Assembly (NCBI RefSeq): GCF_000429945.1
Contig: NZ_AUCV01000034.1
Coordinates: forward strand, 1-64,000
Direction of reading: 5' to 3'
DNA: 64,000 nucleotides
Origin: Desulfogranum japonicum DSM 18378
GTDB taxonomy: Bacteria; Desulfobacterota; Desulfobulbia; Desulfobulbales; Desulfobulbaceae
In this document: piece after piece, positions 51,837 to 58,024 of the stretch
How the letters are laid out: every line of letters starts with the position of its first letter
Position numbering within the stretch: the first letter of the stretch is position 1
Position numbers and translations under genes: made by a program
The notes under the pieces: generated by a model
Databases searched by the model: none
The model's input: the letters and a program-made list of their open reading frames with translations, nothing else
Told to the model about the DNA's origin: nothing

Positions 51837-52658
51837 ATGTTGCAATACCCGGTTATCGACCCTGAAATTTTTTCCATTGGCCCTTTACATTTTCGCTGGT
51901 ACGGTATGATGTATGTAATCGGGTTTACTGCAGCATATATTCTGGTGCAATACCAAGCTAGAAAATTCAAATGGCATGAATTCATTGAGCAAATTGACAA
52001 TCTCAATGTGCAACTCATCATAGGAGTAATTTTTGGGGGTCGGTTGGGATATATCATCCTGTACAATCTCCAATATTATATGGACCATCCTCTGCACATC
52101 TTTGCTGTCTGGGAAGGAGGAATGTCATTTCATGGAGGATGCCTGGGAGCCCTCATAGCTGGTCTTCTTTTCTGCAGGCGTCATGGTATAGCATTTTTGA
52201 AAGCTGCTGACATTTATGTTGCGACAGCACCCATAGGATTATTTTTCGGTCGTCTGGGTAATTTTATTAATGGTGAGTTATATGGGAGAGTGACCGATGT
52301 ACCGTGGGGAATGGTATTTCCTGATGCTGGGCCACTCCCTCGTCATCCATCACAAATCTACGAGGCCCTTCTTGAAGGCCTCTTACTCTTTATTTTACTC
52401 TGGAGTATCAAGTCCAAACCATGGAAATCTTCGCCAAGCCCCCCATGGATTCACGGCTCGATTCTCTGTTGTTTTCTTATTGGGTATGGAACTTTTCGAT
52501 TTAGCGTGGAGAACCTTCGCGAACCTGACCCACAGCTAGGGCTTGTCTTTCAAGCATTCACCATGGGACAGATTCTTAGTCTCTTCATGATCATAATCGG
52601 CCTCGGATTGTGGATCGCACGCTGTTACCCACATTCACGACAGCAACGGTTGAGCTGA
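51837..52658 (+). CDS. lgt: Prolipoprotein diacylglyceryl transferase
   Basis: A 273-residue membrane enzyme that attaches diacylglycerol to the lipobox cysteine of prolipoproteins. Motifs MSFHGGCLGAL and the signature GRLGNFINGELYGR are present; about seven helices. Confidence 0.96.
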   Translation: MLQYPVIDPEIFSIGPLHFRWYGMMYVIGFTAAYILVQYQARKFKWHEFIEQIDNLNVQLIIGVIFGGRLGYIILYNLQYYMDHPLHIFAVWEGGMSFHGGCLGALIAGLLFCRRHGIAFLKAADIYVATAPIGLFFGRLGNFINGELYGRVTDVPWGMVFPDAGPLPRHPSQIYEALLEGLLLFILLWSIKSKPWKSSPSPPWIHGSILCCFLIGYGTFRFSVENLREPDPQLGLVFQAFTMGQILSLFMIIIGLGLWIARCYPHSRQQRLS

Positions 52659-52692
52659 TTCGAAGAACAGGAAGGTTATGCAAGTTCAGCGC

Positions 52693-52965
52693 TTACTGTA
52701 GTTTCTTGGACAAATGCTTGCCAGGTCTGAACTTAACAGCCTTACGAGGAGGAATGGGTACCACTTCGCCTGTTTTGGGATTTCTTCCTGTCCGGGGGGC
52801 GCGGTCAACAACAGTGAAACTGCCAAAACCAGCCAATGTCACTCGCTCACCATCTTCCATGGCCATTGACATCATGGTTAACATGCCATTCAGCCCTCTT
52901 TCTGCAGCGGCTTTACTGATTTGTGCCGTATCAGCTATTGTCTCAATCAGATCATTCTTATTCAT
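52693..52965 (-). CDS. HU-family DNA-binding protein
   Basis: A 90-residue nucleoid protein. LAGFGSFTVVDRAPRTGRNPKTGE is the beta-arm region and carries the conserved Pro. Usual HU length. AAGGAG precedes the ATG at 52965. It lies 240 bases after the response regulator gene. Confidence 0.95.
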   Translation of the reverse strand: MNKNDLIETIADTAQISKAAAERGLNGMLTMMSMAMEDGERVTLAGFGSFTVVDRAPRTGRNPKTGEVVPIPPRKAVKFRPGKHLSKKLQ

Positions 52966-53170
52966 CACAAACTCCTTCTCAACTCATATTTCCTTTTTTT
53001 TTCACGCCTAACACCGCCCATATAGACGGCCCTGCCTTGAGATTGTGCAATTATACGTTTATTAAAAGAAAAGACAATTGAGGGAATTACCTAAATCCAC
53101 CTAGGTAATTTTACCTATTTTTGCAAAAAAAACCTTTAATAGAGAGAAGTTAGTAACTGGTATGCATCCT

Positions 53171-53200
53171 AAAAAAAAGCTTCTGCGAGAAGGATTTTTT
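53171..53200 (-). terminator. Hairpin terminator, probably two-way
   Basis: CTTCT/AGAAG stem with a 3-base loop and a run of T on the minus strand and of T on the plus strand as well. It follows the response regulator stop codon by a few bases. Confidence 0.6.
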
Positions 53201-53204
53201 TCAT

Positions 53205-53858
53205 TTAGCCATCAATGAAACAATCATTGCGCACAACATAATTAACCAGGTCAACAGTATTCTTCATATTGAACTTTTTGAGTAGATTCGCTCTGTGATG
53301 ATCTACTGTCCGGGGACTCAGTTTTAAAAGCTCTCCAATCTTCTTACTGGTATGCCCCTGAACCACCAGACCAAGTACTTCCTTTTCTCTTTTTGACAAA
53401 GACACTTTAGGTAATGTAGCTTGGTTACGAAAAGCTGAAATAATATCTCCTGAAATATCCTGACTCAACTGGGGAGAAACATACGTTTTACCTCTCCTGA
53501 CACAGGCAATGGCCTGCAAAAGTTCTGCTTCAGAATCATCTTTCATCAAATACCCATGGACACCAGCCGATATTGCCTGGTAAAAATATTGATTGCCTCC
53601 ATGCATGGTTACAACAAGGATTTTCATATCAGGTTGGGATTTTTTTATCTGAGAAACAGCTTCCAGCCCGTTGATTTGCGGCATGGTAATATCAAGAATA
53701 ATAAGATCAGCTTCATTACCCCGGAGAAAATCTAGCAACTCAATCCCTGTTGAAGCTTCACCCACTACCTTTATTGCCTGGTCCTGAGCCAGTATACTTT
53801 TAATCCCCTGTCTGACCAGACTGTGGTCATCGGCAATAACTACTCTATACGTTCCCAT
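53205..53858 (-). CDS. NarL/FixJ-type response regulator
   Basis: A 217-residue regulator: receiver domain (~1-120; phospho-acceptor Asp56 in ILDITMP, acidic pair DD at 10-11, Lys in GYLMKDD) and a LuxR-type helix-turn-helix (~150-210; LSKREKEVLGLVVQG). No partner kinase is adjacent. It starts 13 bases after the Nth-Xth fusion gene, so the two share a transcript. The ATG at 53858 is chosen over a TTG three codons upstream. Confidence 0.92.
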   Translation of the reverse strand: MGTYRVVIADDHSLVRQGIKSILAQDQAIKVVGEASTGIELLDFLRGNEADLIILDITMPQINGLEAVSQIKKSQPDMKILVVTMHGGNQYFYQAISAGVHGYLMKDDSEAELLQAIACVRRGKTYVSPQLSQDISGDIISAFRNQATLPKVSLSKREKEVLGLVVQGHTSKKIGELLKLSPRTVDHHRANLLKKFNMKNTVDLVNYVVRNDCFIDG

Positions 53859-53871
53859 ATTAGCCAATCAA

Positions 53872-55311
53872 TCACTGAAACCTGATACTGACAGGACAGT
53901 GGTCTGATCCCATTACATGTTCATGAATAGACGCTTCAGCTATTCTGTCACGACTAGCTTTATCAATAAGGAAGTAGTCTATCCGCCAGCCAATATTTTT
54001 TTCTCTGGCATTAAAACGGTAGCTCCACCACGTATACCGTTCAGCTTCCGTTGAAAACATACGAAAGGTGTCTTCAAGTCCGGCCTCTACGTATTTATCC
54101 ATCCATGCACGTTCTTCAGGAGAAAATCCAGGATTCTGCTCGTTTCTTTTGGGATTAGCCAAATCTATGGGCTTATGAGCTACATTCAAATCTCCACAAA
54201 GTATAACTGTTTTTTTCTCTTCCAATTTTTGCAGATACTTGAGCATAGCACTGTTAAAGGCTTCCTTGAAGGAAAGTCTTTTCAAGCCAGGCTGGGCATT
54301 GGGAAAATAAGCATTTACGAAAAAAAAGGTGTCATACTCCAAAGTCAGTACACGTCCCTCCTCATCAAAAGCTTCCTCTCCTAAACCGTAATAAACGTCT
54401 ACAGGTTCCTTTTTGCTGAAAATAGCGGTTCCAGAATAACCTTTACGTTTGGCGGAATTGATATAAACGTGATACCCGGGCATATCGACAATCTCAGCCG
54501 GGAGCTGCTCAGGCAGCGCCTTGATCTCTTGAAGAGCAAAGATATCTGCATTGAATGAAGCAAACACATCTATAAACCCGTTTTTCAAAGCAGCTCGCAG
54601 CCCGTTCACATTCCAGGATACAAACACTCTCCCATCAGTGTTCTTCTCTGGCTTTATCGTCCTGGGAATAACCCCAATTTGTGGACAATGCGTTGCGATT
54701 ACACACTGATCACAATGGGGACGCTGGGGCGTACATGTACCCTGTCCAAAAGCAACCAGTATGGAATTGATTTCTATCCAGTACTTCTGCGGCAGCTTTT
54801 CACGGAGCACCATCTCTGTCTGTAAAGGAGTTTCCGTCTCTACATATCCCCAGATGTTCATGATCCTGTGCACGTGGGTATCCACACAGATGGCAGGCTT
54901 CCCAAAGGCAACAGCTAAAACAAGATTGGCGGTTTTTCGCCCGACTCCTGGAAGACTAAGCAAGTCTTTCATTGTGGCGGGAACCTGCCCCTGAAACTTC
55001 CTATTCAAAGCCTCTGGCAACTGCTCAAGATACTTTGCCTTATTACGAAAAAAGCCAACTGGGTATATGATTTTCTCCAGTTGCTCTTTACCAATACGGG
55101 CTAAGTCATCTGGTCCATGTATTTCTTGAAATAGTCTGCGAACAGCAGCGGCAGTTACCTCGTCTTTGGTACGGGCGGAAAGAATTGTGGCCACAAGTAT
55201 TTTAAAAGGATCCTGACTCTGGGTGGCTATCAAATCGACCACCGGTACTTGATATTGGGCTACCTCTTCCTTGAGTATAGGTAAAATAGTTTCAATGTCG
55301 ATGCTGGCCAA
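53872..55311 (-). CDS. Endonuclease III - exonuclease III fusion (DNA glycosylase/AP lyase + AP endonuclease)
   Basis: A 479-residue two-enzyme protein. Residues 1-~212 are a full endonuclease III: helix-hairpin-helix LPGVGRKTAN with catalytic Lys126, catalytic Asp144 (VDTHVHRI), and a 4Fe-4S site Cys193-x6-Cys200-x2-Cys203-x5-Cys209. After a ~15-residue linker, ~228-479 is a full exonuclease III: WNVNG (Asn234), LQEIK (Glu262), GDLNVAH and GSDHCPV. It should excise damaged pyrimidines and cut at the abasic site, two steps of base excision repair in one chain. The start appears to be TTG with CAGGTAG upstream; no ATG fits. Confidence 0.93.
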   Translation of the reverse strand: MASIDIETILPILKEEVAQYQVPVVDLIATQSQDPFKILVATILSARTKDEVTAAAVRRLFQEIHGPDDLARIGKEQLEKIIYPVGFFRNKAKYLEQLPEALNRKFQGQVPATMKDLLSLPGVGRKTANLVLAVAFGKPAICVDTHVHRIMNIWGYVETETPLQTEMVLREKLPQKYWIEINSILVAFGQGTCTPQRPHCDQCVIATHCPQIGVIPRTIKPEKNTDGRVFVSWNVNGLRAALKNGFIDVFASFNADIFALQEIKALPEQLPAEIVDMPGYHVYINSAKRKGYSGTAIFSKKEPVDVYYGLGEEAFDEEGRVLTLEYDTFFFVNAYFPNAQPGLKRLSFKEAFNSAMLKYLQKLEEKKTVILCGDLNVAHKPIDLANPKRNEQNPGFSPEERAWMDKYVEAGLEDTFRMFSTEAERYTWWSYRFNAREKNIGWRIDYFLIDKASRDRIAEASIHEHVMGSDHCPVSIRFQ

Positions 55312-56031
55312 TGTAGTCTACCTGAAGTGAAAATAAAAATTTCTGCCCAGCTATTAATTGCTGAGGTAATAAGAAATATAAACAACCAATTACGTGGTAT
55401 CCTGAAATAAAAAAACAAACGGATGTCACCTGTTACAGATTTTCATCTGACCGGCCAGAAAAGGATTACGCAACTGCACGCCTGGCAATGCAGGAAAAAA
55501 TGTAACGGAACGGAGCCATCCCTACAGCCACAAAACGTGTCTCCACAGTAACACGTCGCAGGCTAAAAGCGTATATGATGGATATCATACACGCAAGGCT
55601 GCATGATGACCTTGTTATCCTCAATGTAAATTCTCGGAGGGAGAGACAGACTCCGAGATCAATTTTATGCTGAGGCAAAATCTTGAAGAGGTTCCGGTAT
55701 GTTCGCTGAGCTGGTGCAGGGCCATACCAACAATGAAAAACAATTTTGTGACCACTCACAGGGGATGTACAGCGACACACTGGCCGTCTCCTTACAATGT
55801 TTACCAACAACGTGAACAATTATTATCGGACAGAGGCTCATATGTAACCTCGGCAAACTGTTCTTGTCCGGTGATAAAGTACAAGCGAGCAATTCACCTA
55901 GTTTTAAAGTATCACGACTTTGATATATCAGGCAACTTATTACCGTACAAAAGTCTTCTAGGAAAAGAGATATATGATGGAATAAAAAAAGAAAACACGG
56001 AGAAAAGACATGTTTTCCCCGTGTTAAAATC
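55312..56031. other. 720-base gap without a convincing gene
   Basis: Open frames here have poor composition or no start site. Within it, 55570-55600 holds an imperfect palindrome (GCGTATATGAT/ATCATACACGC), and 55630-55660 holds TCTCGGAG/CTCCGAGA inverted arms followed by a CTCCGAG-ATTTTA-AGGCA series recalling the second repeat family. The end holds the carbonic anhydrase terminator. Confidence 0.5.
55982..56025 (-). terminator. Rho-independent terminator of the carbonic anhydrase gene
   Basis: On the minus strand AACACGGGGAAAA pairs with TTTTCTCCGTGTT around a short loop, then a T-rich run. It lies just after the stop codon. Confidence 0.8.
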
Positions 56032-56625
56032 TTATAGAACAGTAACTAGACCAGAGGCGAGATCATAATATGTCGCAACAACTTTCACCTTACCGGCTTG
56101 AACCAGATCTGACAAAATTGGCTCGGAAGAGGCAATTTTGTCAGCCATATTTTTGGCTAGTTCCTTGGCAGCATTGTTTGTCCAGTCTCCCTCCAATTCT
56201 TTGGTTTTTTTCAAGGCTGCATCTATGGGCGCAGTGAGACTGGCAATGTGTCCATTGAGTTTCACGTCTTGAGATACTGCCGTTATGGCTCCACAGGAGG
56301 AATGCCCCATGACCATAACCAGCGGAGTATGTAAATGAGCTACCGCATATTCGATACTTCCCAGTATCTGGTCATTAATAATATTGCCTGCGACTCGAAC
56401 CACAAACAGGTCTCCCAAACCTTGATCAAACACATCAACAGGCGGGACACGAGAATCCGCACATGTGAGAACCACTGCCAGTGGCTCCTGACCATTTATC
56501 AGCCCCTTACGAGATTCTTCACAATGATTGGGATGTTCACACTTGCCAGCGATGAATCGCCCGTTACCGTTGAGAAGCATCTCCAATACTTCATCTCCGG
56601 ATCGTTTAACATTTGCCGTCTGCAT
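56032..56625 (-). CDS. Beta-class carbonic anhydrase
   Basis: A 197-residue zinc enzyme interconverting CO2 and bicarbonate. Zinc ligands are Cys55 (with the Asp57-Arg59 dyad in CADSR) and His108/Cys111 (GHSSCG). No signal peptide, so cytoplasmic. AAGGAT is 8 bases before the ATG at 56625. It has its own terminator and stands alone. Confidence 0.95.
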   Translation of the reverse strand: MQTANVKRSGDEVLEMLLNGNGRFIAGKCEHPNHCEESRKGLINGQEPLAVVLTCADSRVPPVDVFDQGLGDLFVVRVAGNIINDQILGSIEYAVAHLHTPLVMVMGHSSCGAITAVSQDVKLNGHIASLTAPIDAALKKTKELEGDWTNNAAKELAKNMADKIASSEPILSDLVQAGKVKVVATYYDLASGLVTVL

Positions 56626-57205
56626 CACATTATCCTTGTTGTAAATGGTGTTCCTTAGCCCGGTATCCCTCCAGAAACGACACACTCGCAGATGATGATC
56701 AATCTACTTTTTTTTGCGCACAAATTATCTTCTGTTAGCAAAAAATGGAATGAGATACAGATAAAACAAATATATCTCTTCGAAAGATCGAACGCGCCAG
56801 CATGTAAGCCTGCGCACACCACAGTAAAGAGTAATCATTTCCGGACGAGCATTACCCTTACCTCGCCATTAATAAAAAATCCTTTTAAATGGCCAATTAA
56901 CAACCTGGAAAATCCCTCTTCAGGATCATGACTGCTAATTAACAGGGCAATTTACACGTTTTTACTGTTAAAGGGAAGTAATATGATACTTCAACGAAAC
57001 TGATAGTTGCATTCTTCACTCTTCTTTTCACAGAGTTACAATCTGTCATATCAAAAAGGTAATCAATAGAACAACCATAAAAAATTGCCATTGTTTTATA
57101 CCAAGGCAAAAAACAACCTGTTACCTTGAAGATGTTATATCACGGGGTTTGCCCATCTCCTTGTGACAACGAGACAACGGCTTCATATCATCTCCCGACG
57201 AGACA
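56626..57205. other. 580-base gap, nothing recognised
   Basis: It contains no open frame with a good start site. It is AT-rich and lies between two minus-strand genes: downstream flank of the kinase gene and promoter side of the carbonic anhydrase gene. Confidence 0.5.
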
Positions 57206-58024
57206 TTATTCGTCGGTATAATAATATTTACTCTGATAATCAGAATAATACCCAAACACTTTGTAATCCAAAAGGTTTGTTTTATATGCGTTAAAAACTA
57301 CGCCTATAATCTTGTCACGCCCTATGGTTTCCACCAAAGCCCTGATATGTTCCCGGCGAGATTGTCCATGACGGACGACCAAAACAACGCCATCAACCTG
57401 CTGGGCAAGAATAGCAGTTTCAGCCGCTGCATTTAACGGCGGGCTGTCCAACACAATCAATCTGTCGTCATACCTTGCTTCAAGTTCTTCAATCAAGGCT
57501 ACCATGTTCGACGAGCCTGAAAGCTCTGACGGGTTTTCAGGTAACGAGCCACAGGGTAATATTGAAAGTTTTGGTACACCGCTTTTACAAATAAGGTTTT
57601 CCAGTGGTACTTGTGCCTGGAGGTAATCTGATACCCCCTTTAAATTTGATACGCCGAACAGTCTATGCTGGGTTGGTCTTCTCAGATCACAATCAACAAC
57701 CATGCAATAACTATCCACCCCCTGTGAAAGGGAAAGTCCTAAATTTGCACAGATATAACTTTTTCCTTCGCCTGGGGATGCGCTGGTCACCAATATGGAG
57801 CGCGGACTTTTGCCCATTACCGGGTATAAAATCCTGGTTCGTAAAGTACGTATATTTTCAGCGACTTCTGGCATATACTGCAATCCGAAACGAAATCTCT
57901 CCTCCCAACTGTCAGGAATTGCAGGGCCCTTATTTCTTTTTCCGGATTTTTTGACCTTCCTTTCCTTGTTTTCAATAGCCTCGCTTTCTGCTGCTTTACT
58001 TAAGGCATTACCAACTTTTCCCAT
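57206..58024 (-). CDS. CpsD/CapB-type tyrosine autokinase
   Basis: A 272-residue BY-kinase. Walker A is SASPGEGKS (~81-89), Walker A' is VVDCDLRRP (~109-117) and Walker B is VLDSPP (~191-196). The C-terminal tail is a tyrosine cluster (six Tyr in the last ~14 residues), the autophosphorylation site. It controls polysaccharide chain length with the Wzz-like protein encoded upstream. GGGAGG precedes the ATG. Confidence 0.93.
   Translation of the reverse strand: MGKVGNALSKAAESEAIENKERKVKKSGKRNKGPAIPDSWEERFRFGLQYMPEVAENIRTLRTRILYPVMGKSPRSILVTSASPGEGKSYICANLGLSLSQGVDSYCMVVDCDLRRPTQHRLFGVSNLKGVSDYLQAQVPLENLICKSGVPKLSILPCGSLPENPSELSGSSNMVALIEELEARYDDRLIVLDSPPLNAAAETAILAQQVDGVVLVVRHGQSRREHIRALVETIGRDKIIGVVFNAYKTNLLDYKVFGYYSDYQSKYYYTDE

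Follow-up and report, generated by a model that had tools for sequence, protein, structure and literature searches.

A single gene in Desulfogranum japonicum joins Nth-like and ExoA/APE1-type domains and probably encodes a bifunctional base-excision repair enzyme

Bacteria have joined two consecutive DNA repair enzymes in one gene. In Desulfogranum japonicum DSM 18378, a single open reading frame (ORF) encodes an Nth-like (i.e., endonuclease III-like) domain followed by an ExoA/APE1-type exonuclease III (Xth) domain, and the two are kept joined in most examined Desulfobulbales genomes. The product is most likely a tethered two-step base-excision enzyme that leaves a clean 3′ end; judging from sequence, we put the probability of a single bifunctional base-excision repair enzyme as the gene product at roughly 0.7. 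The joined gene has apparently been passed to other groups, and the same genes are held apart elsewhere. Handover of toxic base-excision repair intermediates has been studied mostly with separate eukaryotic proteins. The fusion offers a natural test of direct handover of dangerous intermediates between repair enzymes, with its fused, tandem, split, and xth-less versions forming a ready set for direct measurement of the effect of the tether. Table 1 lists the features in the window, i.e., the whole 64,000-nt stretch of DNA that was analysed.

Table 1. Coordinates of the fusion gene, its parts, and the adjacent response regulator gene in the window
Feature	Position	Strand	Basis or remark
nth-xth fusion gene, 479 aa	53872..55311	-	TTG start; stop codon 53872-53874
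Nth-like domain, residues 1-212	54676..55311	-	K126 in HhH, then D144; Pfam/NCBIfam and residues
4Fe-4S cluster loop C193-C209, CX6CX2CX5C	54685..54735	-	Sequence; cysteines in 70/70 fusions
Linker, 16 residues 213-228, GVIPRTIKPEKNTDGR	54628..54675	-	GVxPR start conserved, remainder unconserved
ExoA/APE1-type exonuclease III domain, residues 229-479	53875..54627	-	Pfam, NCBIfam, Foldseek, key residues
NarL/FixJ-type response regulator (Response_reg + GerE)	53205..53867	-	ORF and Pfam

The first-pass annotation of this DNA had described a fusion of two complete enzymes in one frame, joined by a short linker and starting at TTG, and this description holds up throughout. The gene reads as a single unbroken ORF, both domains are full length with every checked catalytic and cluster residue in place, and the linker between them is short. 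An in-frame stop codon sits two codons upstream of the TTG, which is the sole start codon ahead of the conserved N-terminus. The TTG start is supported by the closest relative (L004, 78% identity), since that gene has a GTG at the aligned position.

The N-terminal half matches the Pfam families HhH-GPD (residues 40–174, 83.9 bits; cut-off 26.2) and HHH (residues 105–133, 39.5 bits; cut-off 24). Its best glycosylase model is nth (TIGR01083), with 188.3 bits over residues 31–200; mutY scores 72.2 bits. Although nth is the best model, we name the domain “Nth-like” because the score falls below the curated cut-off of 211.7. Sequence matches to Nth structures include PDB entries 9nzc (E 4.1e-51), 1orn (E 1.5e-37), and 2abk (E 1.7e-28), the last of which we take to be E. 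coli endonuclease III. The protein has the cluster motif C193-X6-C200-X2-C203-X5-C209 as well as K126 and D144, which presumably correspond to K120 and D138 of E. coli Nth; their catalytic role is likewise assumed from that enzyme.

The C-terminal half matches Exo_endo_phos (residues 231–471, 98.5 bits, above the cut-off) and the NCBIfam models xth TIGR00633 (310.5 bits; cut-off 99.05) and TIGR00195 (300.8 bits; cut-off 182.55). Both NCBIfam models are matched at E ≤ 1e-20 by 22/22 fusions of set A1. By fold, this half is closest to H. pylori XthA (8igi), Mth0212, and B. subtilis ExoA (5cfe); in the top 13 Foldseek rows, bacterial and archaeal chains are 45–49% identical to the fusion and APE1 chains 40–44%. 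The best 50 of 474 Foldseek rows are all ExoIII-family chains, with the Nth half covered by the sequence matches given above. N234, E262, Y335, D374, N376, D445, D470, and H471 are present, with metal and catalytic roles that are in part our assumption. A total of 15 catalytic, cluster, and specificity residues were checked, G395 included, and all are invariant in 70/70 fusions (the window protein and 69 others, picked because they are fused). G395 falls at the position of H167 in NExo, a match based on equal offsets (228) at D374/D146 and D445/D217 to the residues numbered in PMC6294502, not on a direct NExo alignment. In the part of that paper available to us, NExo H167 is described as sterically hindering abasic residues, with H167G or H167S conferring AP endonuclease activity (PMC6294502). 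Because the fusion has a glycine at this position, its Xth half should be competent as an AP endonuclease and should incise AP sites.

A search for the same fusion in other genomes, as proposed in the first-pass annotation, found a full-length match (E ≤ 1e-165, reached only by matches across both domains) in 188 of the 257 genomes of the order, spread over 53/69 genera. The proportion is 118/148 for order genomes that are ≥90% complete and ≤5% contaminated, and 232/257 match at E ≤ 1e-30. Several genes that miss the full-length threshold are also fused: three have long linkers (G052, G211, and G212), and five are incomplete matches that span the junction (G049, G071, G078, G200, and G247). 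Full-length matches occur in the single-contig genomes G010, G012, G039, G091, G098, and G142. At least three full-length fusions are in named entries, i.e., Desulforhopalus sp. IMCC35007 (L070), a Deltaproteobacteria MAG (L071), and Desulfobulbaceae UBA2276 (L072), all found, together with the split pair L073, among the best 80 of 582 relatives (at least 588 stretches). We take the order to be Desulfobulbales because of these named matches, and because L070 and L072 group with rows of the same order in trees. Three assemblies (G103, G213, and G214) have two fusion copies each, the second copy in G213 being one with a long linker; we are unsure of these duplicates, since contamination is 4–7%.

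Not all relatives have the fusion. In seven genomes (G014, G054, G203, G205, G206, G208, and G209), from no fewer than three families of the order (f1, f5, and f8), nth and xth are separate, adjacent genes, divided by a stop codon or a break in the frame where the linker used to be; in G203, the xth ORF has its own ATG. The locus L073, considered as a fusion, has a stop codon in its linker, making it a split pair. An nth gene with no fused xth, with at least 1.2 kb read downstream, was found in 12 genomes (G130, G131, G167, G168, G169, G173, G174, G196, G222, G223, G047, and G067), and the named locus L132 has the same arrangement. This count leaves out G246, whose nth is more distant, and three loci that appear xth-less and have nth close to a contig end (G041, G045, and G236). 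The state of G066 (L157), which holds 147 N, is uncertain; it was kept in the trees and in the 12 start-codon control loci described below. Ten genomes of family f12 (G130, G131, G167, G169–G174, and G196) have another xth elsewhere, with 42–46% identity. Trees were built by a quick method only, from subsets of the collected sequences, with 76 rows, 88 rows, or 70 nth and 78 xth rows (L073 left out). In the 76-row tree, the xth-less f12 clade branches as sister to all other members of the clade (split 90); in the later tree of 70 nth and 78 xth rows, it sits beside one fusion (81). Lastly, four genomes (G727, G780, G714, and G762; loci L218, L219, L220, and L221) have tandem nth-xth pairs, arranged head to tail with 57–81 nt separating the matched domains. 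Both trees place these pairs apart from the fusion clade, with other outgroup sequences around them, and they represent a second link of nth and xth. The relatives that do without a fusion speak against the tether being essential.

Genus g55 has a dispersed repeat inside the fusion linker (L228:1310-1453, L229:1308-1451, L227:1547-1714, and L156:2569-2760). A 101-base stretch from the G212 linker has 47 matches in G212 itself, 48 in G203, 55 in G211, 38 in G213, and 12 in G204, many of them partial; no match was found in the G014 genome. Translation runs through the repeat in frame in G212 and G213 (as it does in G211, judged by similar translation), which places 48–56 residues between the matched domains. 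In G203, the repeat stretch carries the stop codon that separates nth from xth.

Outside the order, the fusion is rare. A phylum sample of 395 genomes included 16 from the order, 14 of which have a single full-length match. The exceptions are G029, with a run of N that had looked like a frameshift, and G052, with its long linker. Among the ~379 remaining genomes, only G324 and G459 have a full-length match. The full fusion is present in 5/85 genomes of the class of G324. In the order of G459, 12/96 genomes match at E ≤ 1e-90, comprising five full fusions, four nth-xth stretches with intervening stop codons, and three genomes with xth only. Eight extra-order fusions cluster together in each of the two domain trees (SH-aLRT 99 in both), suggesting that the joined gene moved as a unit; L210 (G675) and L054 (G459) are placed elsewhere. 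The fusion therefore looks sporadic outside the order and mostly transferred as a joined gene. Plasmid records yielded 559 with some match and none covering 80% of the query. An apparent fusion in Companilactobacillus (L079, match 111–476) is a joined tblastn artefact; at this locus, xth stands alone and the opposite strand carries an unrelated ORF. In the trees, stand-alone xth genes from other families (L057, L058, L059, L061, L074, L222, and L223) fall within the fused xth domains. Likewise, two free-standing nth genes from family f91 (L189 and L190) fall within the fused nth domains, as though individual domains had broken away from the fusion.

The linker is far more variable than the domains it joins. 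Across the 70 fusions, the spacer from C209 to W233 has 14 different lengths, ranging from 22 to 53 residues, and is richest in Lys, Pro, and Arg. Mean identity among fusions is 68% for nth, 64% for xth, and 71% over the eight residues that immediately follow the cluster (the GVxPR stretch), but only 15% over aligned linker residues 218–229. An AlphaFold2 model has two folded domains (mean pLDDT 81.4), with pLDDT <50 at residues 213–225, so that the linker is predicted to be disordered. No fixed arrangement of the two domains is predicted (pTM 0.56) from the underlying alignment, in which 5/23 rows cover the Nth half. The nth and xth distance matrices are correlated (r 0.75; 0/2000 shuffles as high), a correlation that would also be expected from shared descent alone.

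Across the window’s genome (G000; 5.8 Mb in 124 contigs), neither family has a strong match other than the fusion, and no other nth or xth was found. Two weak matches have 23–25% identity to the Nth half, in ORFs that we label MutY-like and HhH-GPD-like. The genome also has endonuclease IV, matched in 37/57 relatives including this one, and an Fpg/Nei-family gene. The fusion is therefore not the only route, and 3′-end clean-up need not depend on it. The TTG of the response regulator (53867) is 4 nt past the fusion stop codon, and its first in-frame ATG (53858), which may be the true start, is 13 nt past. Given the 4-nt gap, co-transcription of the two genes is plausible. A response regulator of the same kind lies within 600 bases downstream in 26/65 fusion loci with enough flank, and one directly follows nth in the xth-less loci L132, L158–L162, L233, and L234. 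The gene order in window positions 51837–53867, i.e., repair gene, response regulator, HU-like, and lgt-like (on the other strand), with labels that are in part our assumption, recurs at L132, where xth is missing. No convincing gene lies in the ~700 bases upstream of the fusion (55312–56031). A terminator-like hairpin of 13 pairs (55994–56025) follows an ORF that we take to be carbonic-anhydrase-like (56032–56685). Between positions 52600 and 56100, neither promoter-like sites (8 vs 6.6 in shuffles) nor terminator-like sites (4 vs 3.1) are in excess, and no Rfam family matched within 52000–58000.

Based on what the two families do, the Nth-like half would remove oxidised pyrimidines and then nick the resulting abasic site through beta-elimination, so that the 3′ end is left blocked (by an unsaturated aldehyde). 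ExoA/APE1-type enzymes incise abasic sites and clear blocked 3′ ends. The ExoA-like half, on a flexible tether, would strip the 3′ block or itself incise abasic sites, and the outcome would be a 3′-OH for gap filling. Both domains are very probably active within one chain. Having the second enzyme close by and in matched supply would probably be the main gain, keeping blocked ends short-lived. According to the part of PMC13022620 available to us, NTHL1 is limited by its AP-lyase step and by product release, and APE1 relieves it. By analogy with that pair, the tethered ExoA half would free the Nth half from this limit and clear the block immediately. That the tether measurably speeds handover is possible, somewhat short of probable. 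We are more tentative still about channelling, the direct passing of the product that the first-pass annotation had proposed, in which the Nth-like half would excise and nick, and the ExoA half would clean the 3′ end before release, all in one binding event. Channelling is possible and not essential, because the linker is predicted to be disordered and is unconserved, and because relatives have separate genes or no fused xth. If it did occur, the blocked or abasic intermediate would never be exposed, and relatives with split, tandem, or xth-less arrangements would serve as natural controls for what the tether contributes.

Several other explanations of the gene were weighed. One is a sequencing or assembly error that joined two genes, and assembly flaws do exist in relatives, as seen in the N run of G029 and the contig ends of G041, G045, and G236. 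The window has no sign of one, and the same join in 188/257 genomes of the order, single-contig assemblies and the named L070–L072 among them, rules out the frameshift or assembly error in the linker that the first-pass annotation had raised; we give such an error practically no weight. It is improbable that the gene yields separate Nth and Xth products, through internal initiation or proteolysis of the linker. The linker is predicted to be disordered, and an in-frame ATG occurs in the spacer of 31/70 fusions, but few have a Shine-Dalgarno core (4/70, or 7/70 counting GTG and TTG). In the window, where spacer start codons and Shine-Dalgarno cores were examined, the sole start codon is the GTG at V229, which has no core, and we see no internal start from which a separate Xth product could credibly arise. 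By contrast, a start with a core is present in 8/12 split or tandem loci, whose longer spacers favour such starts and which include the uncertain G066. The comparison favours a single product from the window gene. More improbable again is a protein with only one catalytic domain, the other being used for DNA binding or docking. The sub-cut-off nth score would fit this idea, whereas the K, the D, the four cluster cysteines, and the nine ExoIII positions are invariant in 70/70 fusions.

The strongest competing account is compatible with two active domains and rivals only the benefit of the tether. It proposes a frozen operon fusion: adjacent genes lost a stop codon once, with no kinetic advantage, and the joined gene has persisted by descent and equal dosage. 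The tandem pairs in G727, G780, G714, and G762 show that an nth-xth neighbourhood arises without fusion, the linker sequence is unconserved, the genes have split in at least three families (f1, f5, and f8), and a multicopy repeat is tolerated within the linker. However, the frame has been kept in most genomes of the order despite 15% linker identity and 14 lengths, and the extra-order fusions are intact units, both of which would be less expected without some benefit of joining. We consider a frozen fusion a real possibility, at a little under even odds. The reading of the gene as encoding one bifunctional repair enzyme does not depend on this choice.

Both halves of the protein are of known families; their fusion is new within the reach of our literature search, with no description of an nth-xth fusion found in open-licence PMC literature, judged from titles and the starts of abstracts. 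Endonuclease III has in common with the N-terminal half the HhH-GPD fold, the K/D catalytic pair, and the CX6CX2CX5C cluster; it differs in having no C-terminal exonuclease III domain, and the Nth-like half of the fusion scores below the curated nth level. The C-terminal half is closest, by sequence and fold, to ExoA/APE1-type exonuclease III, and all catalytic positions are as in 5cfe, 8igi, Mth0212, NApe (2jc5), and APE1; the fusion differs from these enzymes in the Nth-like domain joined at its N-terminus. ExoIII (1ako, E 8.2e-28) and NExo (6fk4, E 1.3e-28) are much more distant from the Xth half. We take 1ako to be E. coli ExoIII, and the organism assignments of 1ako and 2jc5 are our own. 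Human NTHL1 and APE1 provide the same pair of activities in succession, with APE1 bypassing the slow AP-lyase step according to the part of PMC13022620 available to us; unlike the fusion, they are two separate proteins. Ada-AlkA and Ada-Ogt are likewise natural fusions of bacterial repair domains, as far as described in the part of PMC1839093 available to us, but they join a regulatory domain to a glycosylase or alkyltransferase, not two consecutive steps of one pathway.
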